Source: Mycoplasmatota bacterium
GTDB lineage: Bacteria; Bacillota_I; Bacilli_A; Acholeplasmatales; Acholeplasmataceae
Direction: 5' to 3'
Assembly: GCA_024650045.1 (NCBI GenBank)
Contig: JANKMU010000001.1
Span: forward strand, 62,001 to 126,000
DNA length: 64,000 nt
How positions within the stretch are numbered: the first letter of the stretch is position 1; each line of letters opens with the position of its first letter. The position numbers and the translations under genes were made by a program. Under the pieces are notes generated by a model, which saw only the letters and a list, made by a program, of their open reading frames with translations, was not told where the DNA came from and ran no database searches. Below are positions 33,320 to 63,586 of the stretch, one piece after another.

Positions 33320-33336
33320 ATTAATGAATTAAATAA

Positions 33337-33407
33337 ATGTCAAAGGCAAACCTAGGGAAATCTAGCGACGCAAAACTATAGGGCCTTGAATGGTCGCCAG
33401 TTGTCAT
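33337..33407 (+). ncRNA. Cyclic-di-GMP-I (GEMM) type riboswitch aptamer
   Basis: The region has the class I c-di-GMP aptamer layout: P1 arms ATGTCAA/TTGTCAT with one T-T mismatch, the GGCAAACC entry, a P2 helix capped by GGGAAATC (GAAA tetraloop), the strongly conserved GACGCAAA linker, then ACTATAGGG-CCTT for P3 and GGTCGCCAG closing. The only protein gene downstream is a surface-protein gene 58 bp away, the usual target type. Class I binds c-di-GMP; a cGAMP-binding variant cannot be excluded by eye. Confidence 0.88.
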
Positions 33408-33442
33408 GAAAGTTACATATGTAATTTTTTTGACTTTTTTTA
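33403..33442 (+). terminator. Riboswitch-controlled terminator (expression platform)
   Basis: A 14-bp hairpin GTCATGAAAGTTAC/GTAATTTTTTTGAC (one mismatch, two wobbles, ATAT loop) is followed by a T run. Its left arm begins with the GTCAT that forms the 3' strand of riboswitch helix P1, so the two structures exclude each other. Ligand-stabilised P1 would block the terminator, which predicts an ON switch. Confidence 0.72.
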
Positions 33443-58686: not shown

Positions 58687-58726
58687 AAAACCCAAACACT
58701 GGAAAAAACCAGGATTTGGGTTTTTT
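58687..58726 (+). terminator. Terminator of the nqr operon
   Basis: AAAACCCAAA/TTTGGGTTTT arms with an inner CTGG/CCAG pairing and a six-T tail. Confidence 0.88.
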
Positions 58727-58737
58727 ATTTGTCCAAA

Positions 58738-58810
58738 ATCAATAAAAATATCACTAATATCAATAAAAATTAGAAAAAAATCAATAAAATCAATATAAAA
58801 ATCAATAAAA
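58738..58810 (+). repeat. Phased ATCAATAAAA repeat array upstream of a strong promoter
   Basis: ATCAATAAAA occurs at 58738, 58759, 58780 and 58801, exactly 21 bp apart, with a variant ATCAATATAAAA at 58789. A-tracts continue toward the -35 at 58834. Spacing of two helical turns puts every box on the same face of the DNA. This fits an operator array or intrinsically bent upstream DNA; not a CRISPR array, because the units are only 10 bp. Confidence 0.8.
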
Positions 58811-58833
58811 TTAACAAAAATACAAAAAAATGC

Positions 58834-58862
58834 TTGACAAATGATAACTAAATGAATATAAT
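58834..58862 (+). promoter_or_regulatory. Perfect consensus promoter of the lipoprotein/repeat-RNA transcript
   Basis: TTGACA (58834-58839), 17-bp spacer, TATAAT (58857-58862), preceded by the phased A-tract array, which may act as an UP-like element. High transcription is expected. Confidence 0.85.
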
Positions 58863-58884
58863 TAAAGTGTAAATTAAAAAAATT

Positions 58885-58929
58885 AATGATTTCGAAAAAA
58901 AGATTAACAAAATCAAAATAGAAATCGTT
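58885..58929 (+). promoter_or_regulatory. Leader hairpin of the lipoprotein transcript
   Basis: AATGATTTC pairs with GAAATCGTT (9 bp, one wobble) across a 27-nt A-rich loop. It lies between promoter and ribosome site (AAGGAAAGGA) and may protect or regulate the transcript. Confidence 0.45.
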
Positions 58930-58976
58930 AAAATAAAAAAAGTGATGTTGGGTAAAACCAAGGAAAGGATTTAAAA

Positions 58977-59426
58977 ATGAAAAAGACATTAACCACTATG
59001 TTCTCAATGCTCGTCTTCCTAGTACTATTGACAGCTTGTTCAATACAACAAAACCAAAATATTTATGATAATGATAATAAAATATTAAAACTTGATGATT
59101 ACAAAACATATGAGTCAATAGAAGGTGGAGTTGAAGAAAACAATGCATACATTAGCTTTAAGGATTACGATGGTATTGATACACTCTTCGTCTTCGCAGG
59201 AAGTCAAACAGTAACAATCACAGTTTATGATTATGTTACAGATGGTAGATTTAAGGTTGTCCTAATTGATCCTTATAATAATGTTAAAGAATTAAAAGAA
59301 ACAACAAGAGTTGAAGCAATCGAAGGACAATATAAAGTTAAAGTTGTTGGTGATCATGCTTCTGGTGCAGTCTCAATCAACTTAGAATTGCAAGTTTCAT
59401 TCTATCCGTTATCAAATAAGAACTAA
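58977..59426 (+). CDS. Small lipoprotein ahead of the tandem RNA hairpins
   Basis: No family is recognised. The 149-aa protein has a lipoprotein signal with Cys21 (LLTAC). The mature part is predicted to be an all-beta domain: alternating hydrophobic strands such as DTLFVFAGSQTVTITVYDY and GRFKVVLIDPYNNV, and a final SINLELQVSFY strand. It has the strongest promoter seen in the window and is followed not by a terminator but by some 550 nt of structured non-coding sequence. It probably sits on the outer membrane face. Confidence 0.78.
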   Translation: MKKTLTTMFSMLVFLVLLTACSIQQNQNIYDNDNKILKLDDYKTYESIEGGVEENNAYISFKDYDGIDTLFVFAGSQTVTITVYDYVTDGRFKVVLIDPYNNVKELKETTRVEAIEGQYKVKVVGDHASGAVSINLELQVSFYPLSNKN

Positions 59427-59483
59427 TATTTGATACAAAAGATTAAATGAAAAGATAAGTTTTAAATTATCATTTGAAAACTA

Positions 59484-59525
59484 GGCACTAAGAAATCATG
59501 GGAAATATGGTTAGATCTGGGTGTA
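59484..59525 (+). repeat. Hairpin repeat copy 1 (most diverged)
   Basis: Outer stem CACTAAGA/TCTGGGTG has A-T pairs where the other copies have G-C. The inner stem is AATCAT/ATGGTT with a GGGAAAT loop. Confidence 0.65.
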
Positions 59526-59587
59526 GTAAGTAAAAAAGATAAAATAAAACTTAGGATGGTTATTTAAAAAGAAATGATGATTCGAAT

Positions 59588-59628
59588 GGCACTAGGAGAT
59601 CGTGAAAAAACGATTATGGTCCAGGTGA
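59588..59628 (+). repeat. Hairpin repeat copy 2
   Basis: Outer stem CACTAGGA/TCCAGGTG, inner stem ATCG/CGAT, loop TGAAAAAA, with the 3' bulge TATGG. Confidence 0.75.
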
Positions 59629-59665
59629 TTTGAATAAATTATTTACAAAAAAGAAAAAGGAGTGC

Positions 59666-59705
59666 GGCACTAGGAGATTGAGAGAAATCAATTGTGGTCC
59701 AGGTG
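59666..59705 (+). repeat. Hairpin repeat copy 3
   Basis: Outer stem CACTAGGA/TCCAGGTG, inner stem ATTG/CAAT, loop AGAGAAAT, 3' bulge TGTGG. Confidence 0.75.
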
Positions 59706-59750
59706 GCAGTCCAATAGTCAGAAAAAGTATTAAAAAGATTTAAACTATAT

Positions 59751-59790
59751 GGCACTAGGAAATTGAGAGAAATCAATTGTGGTCCGGGTG
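59751..59790 (+). repeat. Hairpin repeat copy 4
   Basis: Outer stem CACTAGGA/TCCGGGTG, inner stem ATTG/CAAT, loop AGAGAAAT, 3' bulge TGTGG; followed by ATATAGAAAG, similar to the sequence after copy 5. Confidence 0.75.
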
Positions 59791-59821
59791 ATATAGAAAG
59801 AAAGTGTAATAAAATGCGTAT

Positions 59822-59862
59822 AGCACTAGGAAATTGTAAAAAAAACAATTGTGATCCTAGTG
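59822..59862 (+). repeat. Hairpin repeat copy 5, outer stem perfectly paired
   Basis: Outer stem CACTAGGA/TCCTAGTG with all eight pairs; inner stem AATTGT/ACAATT; A-only loop; 3' bulge GTGA. Followed by ATACAGAAAG. Confidence 0.78.
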
Positions 59863-59880
59863 ATACAGAAAGTCAATCAT

Positions 59881-59974
59881 CCAATCCTCCTAAAAACTAA
59901 TCTTTCTGAAAACCTAATAGATGCAACCTAAAAAGTTGTAAGTTCTAGAAGGGGATCATTAGATTGGTTTTTTT
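59881..59974 (+). terminator. Large 3' structure and terminator of the repeat-RNA transcript
   Basis: CCAAT (59881) pairs with ATTGG (59963-59967) and CTAAT (59897) with ATTAG (59958-59962), enclosing a TGCAAC/GTTGTA hairpin; a long T run follows. AAAACC at 59909-59914 can instead pair with GGTTTT at 59966-59971, so two rival folds are possible. Confidence 0.65.
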
Positions 59975-60097
59975 ATATGTAAATATATTGCATAGTATAG
60001 TATATTCATTTCAATTATAGTATAATGCTATTATATGTGTATGTCGATTTGGGGAAATATGTGCATAGCACAATAAAAATAGAAAGAAGGCATAAAA
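59975..60097 (+). promoter_or_regulatory. Promoter region of the DUF975-type gene
   Basis: AT-rich spacer with TATAAT at 60021-60026 and ribosome site AGAAAGAAGG before the next gene. No good -35 was found at the right distance. Confidence 0.4.
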
Positions 60098-60799
60098 ATG
60101 ATTAGTAATAGAATCGAGATTAAAGAAAAAGCAAGACAAAACTTGCAAGGAAAGTATGGCGTTGTTATACCTATTTTGTTGATATTTGCAGTCGTTCAAG
60201 GTGCGGTTGGTACAATTAGAGACCAGTTTACTCCGAAATACGAAATTGATTGGGAAACTATGACAAGAGTATTAGTTAGTGAAGGAAATCCAGTATTGAA
60301 CCTATTGTTTTCTCTTGTAGGAACTTTAGTCGGAGCAATCATTTTGTACGCTTCAGCAAGAGTTTATATTCAACTTGCAAGAAATGAAAAACCAGTGATT
60401 GAAGAAGCATTAACTATTGGTTTTAAAACCAGTCCAGTTAAGTTATTTGTTACTTCATTTTTAATGGGGCTCTATATCCTTTTATGGATGCTTTTGTTTA
60501 TTATTCCTGGTATTGTTAAAGCTTATGCATATTCAATGACTTATTACTTGTTACACTTAAGACCAGAAGTTAATGCAGCTGATACAATAACTTTGTCTAA
60601 AGAATATACAAAAGGATACAAGATGGATTTATTTGTGTTAGATTTAAGTTACTTATTACATTACATATTAGGTATATTTACACTTGGTATTTATTGGTTA
60701 TGGGTTATTCCAAAGCATTCAACAGCTAGAACGCTTTATTATGAAGAAATTTATTTAAAGCATAATCCTGTTGTCAATGTAATAGAAGATGAAGTTTAA
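60098..60799 (+). CDS. DUF975 family integral membrane protein
   Basis: The 233-aa protein has about five membrane segments. DUF975 features are visible: the amphipathic start SNRIEIKEKARQNLQGKYG, a middle FKTSPVKLFVTSFLMGLYILLW, the IPGIVKAYAYSMTYYLL segment near residue 138, and a late KGYKMDLFVLDLSYLLHYILG followed by YWLWVIPKHSTARTLYYEEI. Its function is unknown; members are common in Firmicutes. Confidence 0.87.
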   Translation: MISNRIEIKEKARQNLQGKYGVVIPILLIFAVVQGAVGTIRDQFTPKYEIDWETMTRVLVSEGNPVLNLLFSLVGTLVGAIILYASARVYIQLARNEKPVIEEALTIGFKTSPVKLFVTSFLMGLYILLWMLLFIIPGIVKAYAYSMTYYLLHLRPEVNAADTITLSKEYTKGYKMDLFVLDLSYLLHYILGIFTLGIYWLWVIPKHSTARTLYYEEIYLKHNPVVNVIEDEV

Positions 60800-62200: not shown

Positions 62201-63586
62201 ATGAAAAAAAAATATGTTGCAGAACCATATCGTATCAAGGTAGTAGAACCTATTCGTCAAACAACGAAGGCAGAACGGATTAAGATTCTAAAAAACGCTG
62301 GGTATAACCCTTTTTCTTTGAGAAGTGAGGATGTCTATATTGATTTACTAACAGATTCAGGAACTAGCGCAATGAGCCAAGAACAGTGGTCAGCATTGAT
62401 GATTGGTGATGAAGCTTATGCTGGTAGTAGAAGTTTTTATAGACTTGAAAGCGTTGTAAAAAATATTACAAACTATCAATATTTTATACCTGCACATCAA
62501 GGTCGTGGGGCTGAACAGGTTTTTTTACCACAACTTGTGACCAAAAAGGGGATGTACTACATATCTAATATTCATTTTGATACGACAAGATCACATGTTG
62601 AACTTGCAGGAGCAAGAGCAATTGATTGTGTGATTGATGATTGTTTTGATTTAAATACATATCATCCTTTTAAAGGTAATTTTTGTCTTAAAAAATTAGA
62701 AAAAGTCATTCTTGAAAAAGGTAAAGAAAATATTGCAGGCATTATTATGACAATTACTAACAACTCAGCAGGTGGTCAACCAGTAAGTATGGAAAATATG
62801 CGATTAGTCAGTCAAATGGCTAAAAAGTATGGTATTACGACGATTATTGATGGAGCACGATATGCTGAAAATGCTTTTTTCGTTAAAGAAAGAGAAGAAG
62901 GATATCAAGATATGGATATTATTGATATCGCAAGAGAAGCATTTAGTTATGCAGATGCTTTATTAATGAGTGCTAAAAAAGATGGGCTCGTTAATATGGG
63001 AGGATTTATTGCGATAAAGAATAATGAAGATCTTTATAATAAATGTAGAACATATATTGTTCCTATGGAAGGCTTCCCAACTTATGGTGGTATGAATGGT
63101 AGAGATATGGATGCTCTTGCTGTAGGACTTATGGAAGCACTTGATGAGAATTACTTAAGACATCGAATAGATCAAGTTAGATATTTGGGAGATCGATTAA
63201 GAGAAGCTGGAGTACCTATACAATATCCTATTGGTGGGCATGCGGTTTTTGTTGACTGCAAATCAGTTGCACCACATATTCCATATGATCAATTTCCAGC
63301 ACAAAGCGTGACCAATGCAATTTATATTGAAGCAGGTGTGAGAGCGGTAGAGATAGGATCTTTGTTATTAGGTAGAGACCCAGATACGCACGAGAATTTA
63401 CAAAGTGAAATGGAGTTAATGAGATTAACGATTCCAAGAAGAGTATATACATATAGACACCTAGATGTTGTTGCAGATGCTGTTATTCATGTCTATGAAC
63501 ATAGAAACGAACTCAAAGGTTTAGCGTTTGTTTATGAACCTCCAATTCTTAGACATTTTACTGCTGTTTTCAAACCAATCGATTAA
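62201..63586 (+). CDS. tnaA: Tryptophanase
   Basis: The 461-aa PLP enzyme belongs to the beta-eliminating lyases. It has EPYRIKVVEPIRQTTKAER at the start, IDLLTDSGTSAMSQEQWSALMIGDEAYAGS near residue 46, the PLP-binding Lys in MSAKKDGLVNMGG, and PRRVYTYRHLDVVADAV near the end. Tyrosine phenol-lyase is close, but that family has SMERG where this protein has AVEIGSLLLGRDP, as in tryptophanase. It splits tryptophan to indole, pyruvate and ammonia. Ribosome site AAAGGAGAT. Confidence 0.88.
   Translation: MKKKYVAEPYRIKVVEPIRQTTKAERIKILKNAGYNPFSLRSEDVYIDLLTDSGTSAMSQEQWSALMIGDEAYAGSRSFYRLESVVKNITNYQYFIPAHQGRGAEQVFLPQLVTKKGMYYISNIHFDTTRSHVELAGARAIDCVIDDCFDLNTYHPFKGNFCLKKLEKVILEKGKENIAGIIMTITNNSAGGQPVSMENMRLVSQMAKKYGITTIIDGARYAENAFFVKEREEGYQDMDIIDIAREAFSYADALLMSAKKDGLVNMGGFIAIKNNEDLYNKCRTYIVPMEGFPTYGGMNGRDMDALAVGLMEALDENYLRHRIDQVRYLGDRLREAGVPIQYPIGGHAVFVDCKSVAPHIPYDQFPAQSVTNAIYIEAGVRAVEIGSLLLGRDPDTHENLQSEMELMRLTIPRRVYTYRHLDVVADAVIHVYEHRNELKGLAFVYEPPILRHFTAVFKPID

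Follow-up and report, generated by a model that had tools for sequence, protein, structure and literature searches.

Five tandem hairpins, which the covariation of their homologues marks as real and as selected RNA structure, were found behind a small lipoprotein gene in a 64,000-nucleotide stretch of DNA (the window), part of contig C11 of a 1.89 Mb genome (G000). The array lies between the stop codon and the terminator of one predicted transcription unit. Its hairpin matches no known RNA family and, judged by sequence comparison, founds a new family of structured RNA that covariation strongly supports.

The transcription unit

The promoter, lipoprotein gene, five hairpins, C-rich stretch and terminator follow one another in that order and probably give a monocistronic mRNA (Table 1). 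All six genomes that have the array (the window genome and five others) arrange promoter, gene, array and terminator in this way. A terminator-like hairpin sets the preceding gene apart from this unit. Upstream of the promoter, A-tracts of the ATCAATAAAA type follow one another over a long distance (region 58730-58862), and the combination resembles an UP-element promoter of great strength. It is conserved in genomes with the array and in relatives without it. In the 5′ UTR a small hairpin immediately precedes the Shine-Dalgarno sequence.

Table 1 Features of the lipoprotein transcription unit in the window
Feature	Position	Strand	Remarks
Intrinsic-terminator-like hairpin after preceding rnfC/nqrF-like gene	58687..58726	+	Sequence reading: AAACCCAAA..TTTGGG and T-run
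Sigma-70 promoter, TTGACA-17-TATAAT	58834..58862	+	12/12 consensus; kept in 6/6 array genomes
5′ UTR	58869..58976	+	Predicted start ~7 nt past the -10 box
Lipoprotein gene, 149 aa	58977..59426	+	Lipobox LLTAC; no Pfam family above cut-off
Hairpin copy 1	59480..59527 (model match 59480-59531)	+	R1 59.3 bits; AGA/UCU outer-stem variant, A.G mismatch
Hairpin copy 2	59584..59631 (model match 59584-59635)	+	R1 69.5 bits
Hairpin copy 3	59662..59709 (model match 59662-59713)	+	R1 68.9 bits
Hairpin copy 4	59747..59794 (model match 59747-59798)	+	R1 75.2 bits
Hairpin copy 5	59818..59866 (model match 59818-59870)	+	R1 65.9 bits; continuous 8-bp outer stem
CCUCCU, anti-Shine-Dalgarno-like stretch	59886..59891	+	In 6/6 array genomes; putative function
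Terminator, AAAAACUAAUC/GAUUGGUUUUU stem and T-run	59892..59974	+	Folding z = -2.8 and sequence

The lipoprotein gene has a dN of 0.07 and a dS of 0.44 against its orthologue in G005 (0.07-0.20 and 0.44-0.63 across genome pairs), values that indicate purifying selection. The gene is thus alive, and its predicted transcript is more readily taken for an mRNA carrying a long 3′ UTR than for a free-standing non-coding RNA hosted by a dead gene. A preliminary description of the region had called the array a non-coding RNA tied to a small lipoprotein mRNA. The tie is borne out in 6/6 genomes and the structure is confirmed, but the RNA is better described as the 3′ UTR of that mRNA. A protein-coding reading of the array was rejected, the only frames being two that start with TTG, one of 45 aa (+ strand) and one of 69 aa (- strand).

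As the lipoprotein has no Pfam family and no solved relative, its biology gives no hint to the role of the array. The lipoprotein extends beyond the genomes that carry the array, with homologues lacking it in G002, G026, G011 and G001; the G002 homologue (44% identical) has the same promoter type and a short terminator in place of the array. The array is therefore dispensable for the gene as such.

Structure and conservation of the hairpin

A covariance model, R1, was built from the five window copies and matches all five on the + strand, in the places first described; their starts are 104, 78, 85 and 71 nt apart. The unit reads as a 48-nt three-tier hairpin consisting of P1, an unpaired 5′ GG, P2, a 3′ bulge, P3 and a GNGAAA hexaloop. 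The outermost stem, P1, is about 4 bp long, differs from copy to copy (AUAU/AUAU, ACUA/UAGU, GUAU/AUAC) and is separated from P2 by the unpaired 5′ GG or AG; the two-tier fold of the preliminary description had missed it. The middle stem, P2, is conserved, is of the CACUAGGA/UCYUGGUG type and has a U.G wobble fixed in 38/39 copies. The outer 8-bp stem reported earlier is continuous in copy 5 only, copies 1-4 having an A.A or A.G mismatch in mid-stem, and the bulge, which had been given as usually TGTGG or TATGG, is actually of 3-4 nt (AGA, AUGG, GUGG, GUGG and GUGA).

The unpaired 5′ GG is near-invariant (G in 36/40 and 40/40 aligned copies). Over the same 40 copies the hexaloop counts are G36 N G34 A40 A39 A40, and those of the GG that ends the 3′ bulge are G40 G33. 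Two readings of the bulge were tried by eye and rejected: the sheared G.A pairs required by a kink-turn are missing, as is the CCUAAG strand required by an 11-nt tetraloop receptor. A 20-nt stem around copy 1 (59456-59475 with 59534-59553) was also set aside, as by eye it is not kept in G005.

The 554-nt tail (59427-59980) has a folding energy of -134.4 kcal/mol, whereas dinucleotide shuffles reach -95.0 ± 5.3 kcal/mol (z = -7.4; 0/100 shuffles as stable), and single copies have folding z values of -1.3 to -6.0. Covariation was assessed on an alignment of 40 copies from six genomes (A3) with a 17-pair structure. Standard pairs fill 96.4% of the pair cells, a figure inflated by the fitting of the alignment to the structure, against 82.6% in shuffles, a contrast inflated by the relatedness of the copies; when the partners are slid by 1-3 columns pairing falls to 26-43%. 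Two-sided changes occur at 12 of the 17 pairs, in 110 cells against 32 ± 5.5 in shuffles, with the same inflation of the contrast. As the difference is large and the P1 sequence varies from copy to copy, fit and kinship are unlikely to be the cause of the signal. One covariation that is robust to the alignment, GGCACU...GGUG to GGUACU...GGUA, is found in eight distinct copies. Between genome pairs the hairpins are 87-92% identical, the spacers 61-74% and the coding region 77-88%. The earlier suggestion of selected RNA structure is thus upheld by strong covariation in the homologues.

Across the 40 copies 97 cells are G-U and 2 are A-C; the constraint is therefore on the + strand RNA and not on DNA palindromes, for which strand-symmetric mismatches are expected. 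A search for the behaviour of a scattered DNA repeat (REP, MITE or attC-like) found neither unrelated sites nor reverse orientation. A DNA-only repeat is ruled out by this asymmetry and by the single locus per genome, in agreement with the first description.

Distribution and copy number

R1 finds 35 further copies in G003, G004, G005, G014 and G019 (E 3e-17 to 4e-5 per genome). Full copies number 5 in G000 and G014, 7 in G003, G004 and G005, and 9 in G019, in tails of 548-1095 nt. In 6/6 genomes the array is directly behind the orthologous lipoprotein gene and nowhere else, with 40/40 copies in the orientation of the gene. Elsewhere in the window genome the best match scores 14.2 bits (E = 2.2) and there are no isolated copies.

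The array is present in 6/20 genomes, from a few species, of the genus, which comprises wall-less, free-living bacteria. No credible match was obtained in the other 68 of 88 family genomes, and samples of the class (395 genomes) and the phylum (392 genomes) gave only isolated weak matches outside the genus. Two of these were taken as chance, one inside an MgtC-like ORF (L056) and one antisense within a permease-like gene (L061); four other class matches have 23-25 bits each. A search of viral contigs with one fixed pattern gave 0 exact matches. Among named relatives that have the array, Peloplasma aerotolerans M4Ah is the closest; this Mollicute from a mud volcano belongs to the Acholeplasmataceae and appears to be G005. 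Either the array was gained inside the genus or G002 has lost it.

A second group of genomes (G003, G004, G014 and G019) has, towards the 3′ end, an extra copy of reduced length, GGA-P3-loop-AGN-CC, with conserved pairs, which scores 9-14 bits with model R2. In G004 (L035, 2090-2410) two hairpins and their spacer, about 171 nt in all, have been duplicated nearly unchanged, which shows how the array grows. The spacers, first described as unrelated, are indeed different from one another in the window; in G004, however, this duplication took in a spacer as well as hairpins.

The 3′ end of the tail is also conserved in part. CCUCCU, which resembles the anti-Shine-Dalgarno sequence of 16S rRNA, is kept just before the terminator (3′ tails including L033-L037), whereas the rest of the tail differs from one group to the other. 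The terminator itself possibly contains a degenerate hairpin copy (AGAUGCAAC..GUUGUAAGUUCU).

Comparison with known RNA families

No match to the array was found in Rfam 15 at the gathering score, so that the class is, as first described, unrecognised; a permissive Rfam scan of 58700-60100 gave chance-level matches only, and literature searches returned no description of this RNA. The only Rfam match in the window, which comes from an Acholeplasmataceae genome, is a c-di-GMP-I riboswitch at 33335-33408 (+, 53 bits).

Protein partners of known hairpins were sought in the genus. CsrA (PF02599) and CAT_RBD (PF03123, the partner of the LicT/SacY RAT hairpin) were each found in 0/20 genomes, control genomes being matched in both cases. 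For ANTAR (PF03861), in a search that matched no positive control, there was no above-cut-off match in the genus, none at all in G000, G003, G004, G005 or G014, and one sub-cut-off match in G019. The ToxI RNAs of type III toxin-antitoxin systems are tandem repeats of a length similar to the array units, but the array consists of hairpins with variable spacers, and no ToxN gene (PF13958) was found in any array genome or adjoining the repeats. A ToxN-like type III toxin is encoded in G012 (contig C25, 10475-11011; PF13958, E 8.9e-36), a genome without the array.

Possible roles of the array

We tentatively favour, at a little under an even chance, a role as a cis-acting multivalent docking array on the lipoprotein mRNA. 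One set of unpaired bases is displayed by each of the five to nine successive units, at which a single RNA-binding protein with sequence specificity would dock, or through which the RNA would associate with itself. Docking would act in cis on the lipoprotein mRNA and might, for example, protect, store or place it. The sequences establish the structure, its strand, its conservation, its constant genomic position and the variation in copy number, and from these we infer transcription, the existence of a partner and action in cis. Near-invariant unpaired bases in a repeated unit make a specific partner likely, the constant position behind one gene and the lack of isolated copies favour cis action over a sponge, and a copy number varying from 5 to 9 is as expected of multivalency. 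Against this, the lipoprotein also occurs without the array, no dedicated gene accompanies the array, and much the same traces would be expected of RNA that assembles with itself or binds a ligand. A bolder and unlikely version is an undescribed bacterial mRNP, in which the five to nine protein-binding or self-associating hairpins of the lineage-specific 3′ UTR array would gather many copies of a single partner and keep the mRNA in a condensate or membrane-bound.

Should a protein be recruited, bacteria would have their own equivalent of the multivalent binding arrays of 3′ UTRs, which are known mainly from eukaryotes or as engineered MS2/PP7 tags, and the hairpin could serve as bait for a new RNA-binding protein. 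The array occurs in an isolated and named Mollicute, P. aerotolerans, a member of a group in which RNA regulation is little known.

The hairpins could instead be passive stabilisers with no specific partner, which would make the mRNA longer-lived by blocking 3′-to-5′ exonucleases, as REP elements do in enteric bacteria. The 3′ UTR position, the strong folding and the variable copy number and spacers would suit such a role, and REP/BIME elements are likewise repeated palindromic units behind a gene. The array differs from them in being unscattered, at a single locus, and in conserving its asymmetric bulges. A generic roadblock needs neither the loop and bulge bases that are near-invariant over 40 copies nor the fixed U.G wobble in P2, and passive stabilisation is considered improbable.

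A trans-acting RNA is about as doubtful. The tail would be processed from the mRNA and act as a sponge titrating an RNA-binding protein away from other mRNAs, with CCUCCU possibly pairing with Shine-Dalgarno sequences. Repeated near-identical sites, a consensus promoter and a C-rich stretch kept in both groups are consistent with this, and CsrB/RsmZ also carry many copies of one hairpin per RNA with conserved unpaired bases. In the array, however, the GGA is base-paired and not in the loop, and the hairpins form the 3′ UTR tail of an mRNA. The best-known sponge partner is CsrA. Its absence from the genus, together with the lack in the window genome of a second motif site above 14.2 bits that could be a competing target, weakens the sponge version put forward in the preliminary description.

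The C-rich stretch, for its part, behaves as a generic anti-Shine-Dalgarno sequence. In the window its own start ranks 22nd of 57 starts, 21 others pairing better, and specific pairing with that start was rejected there; in all four second-group genomes the lipoprotein start has AGGAGG, to which CCUCCU is fully complementary. Pairing with Shine-Dalgarno sequences is therefore offered as a lead only, on sequence grounds. In icaR of S. aureus a long regulatory 3′ UTR has a C-rich UCCCC motif that is able to pair with the Shine-Dalgarno sequence (PMC3868564). The array mRNA resembles icaR in its long 3′ UTR and in CCUCCU, which is similar to UCCCC, but icaR has not been described with a tandem hairpin array.

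Homotypic assembly, in which the hairpins would interact mutually to build an RNA-only particle of the sort demonstrated for ROOL, GOLLD and OLE (PMC12286853), seems very unlikely. The repeated near-identical loops and bulges and the large tail would fit, and the array shares large structured RNA with these and with the abundant, narrowly distributed lncRNA of L. salivarius (PMC5643018), whose narrow distribution it also shares. It is, however, simply a series of tandem hairpins on an mRNA that encodes a protein, has no sequence or model relation to ROOL, GOLLD or OLE, and no loop-receptor pair was identified in it. Control of the mRNA 3′ end by a row of aptamers for a small molecule is likewise very unlikely: the asymmetric bulges and hexaloop are conserved, but the five to nine copies lie behind and not before the gene, with no evident expression platform between them and no Rfam riboswitch match at the array.

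Neighbouring genes

No dedicated gene accompanies the array, and the downstream gene differs between the two genome groups. In the window its neighbours are a DUF975 gene and an oxidoreductase. Lipoprotein paralogues at L050 and L051, with neither promoter nor array of their own, are in another operon before a membrane-methyltransferase-like gene. At L034-L037 (G019, G004, G003 and G014) the DUF975 and malic-enzyme-like genes that intervene in the window are absent, and the next downstream gene is a homologue of window ORF 62201-63586.
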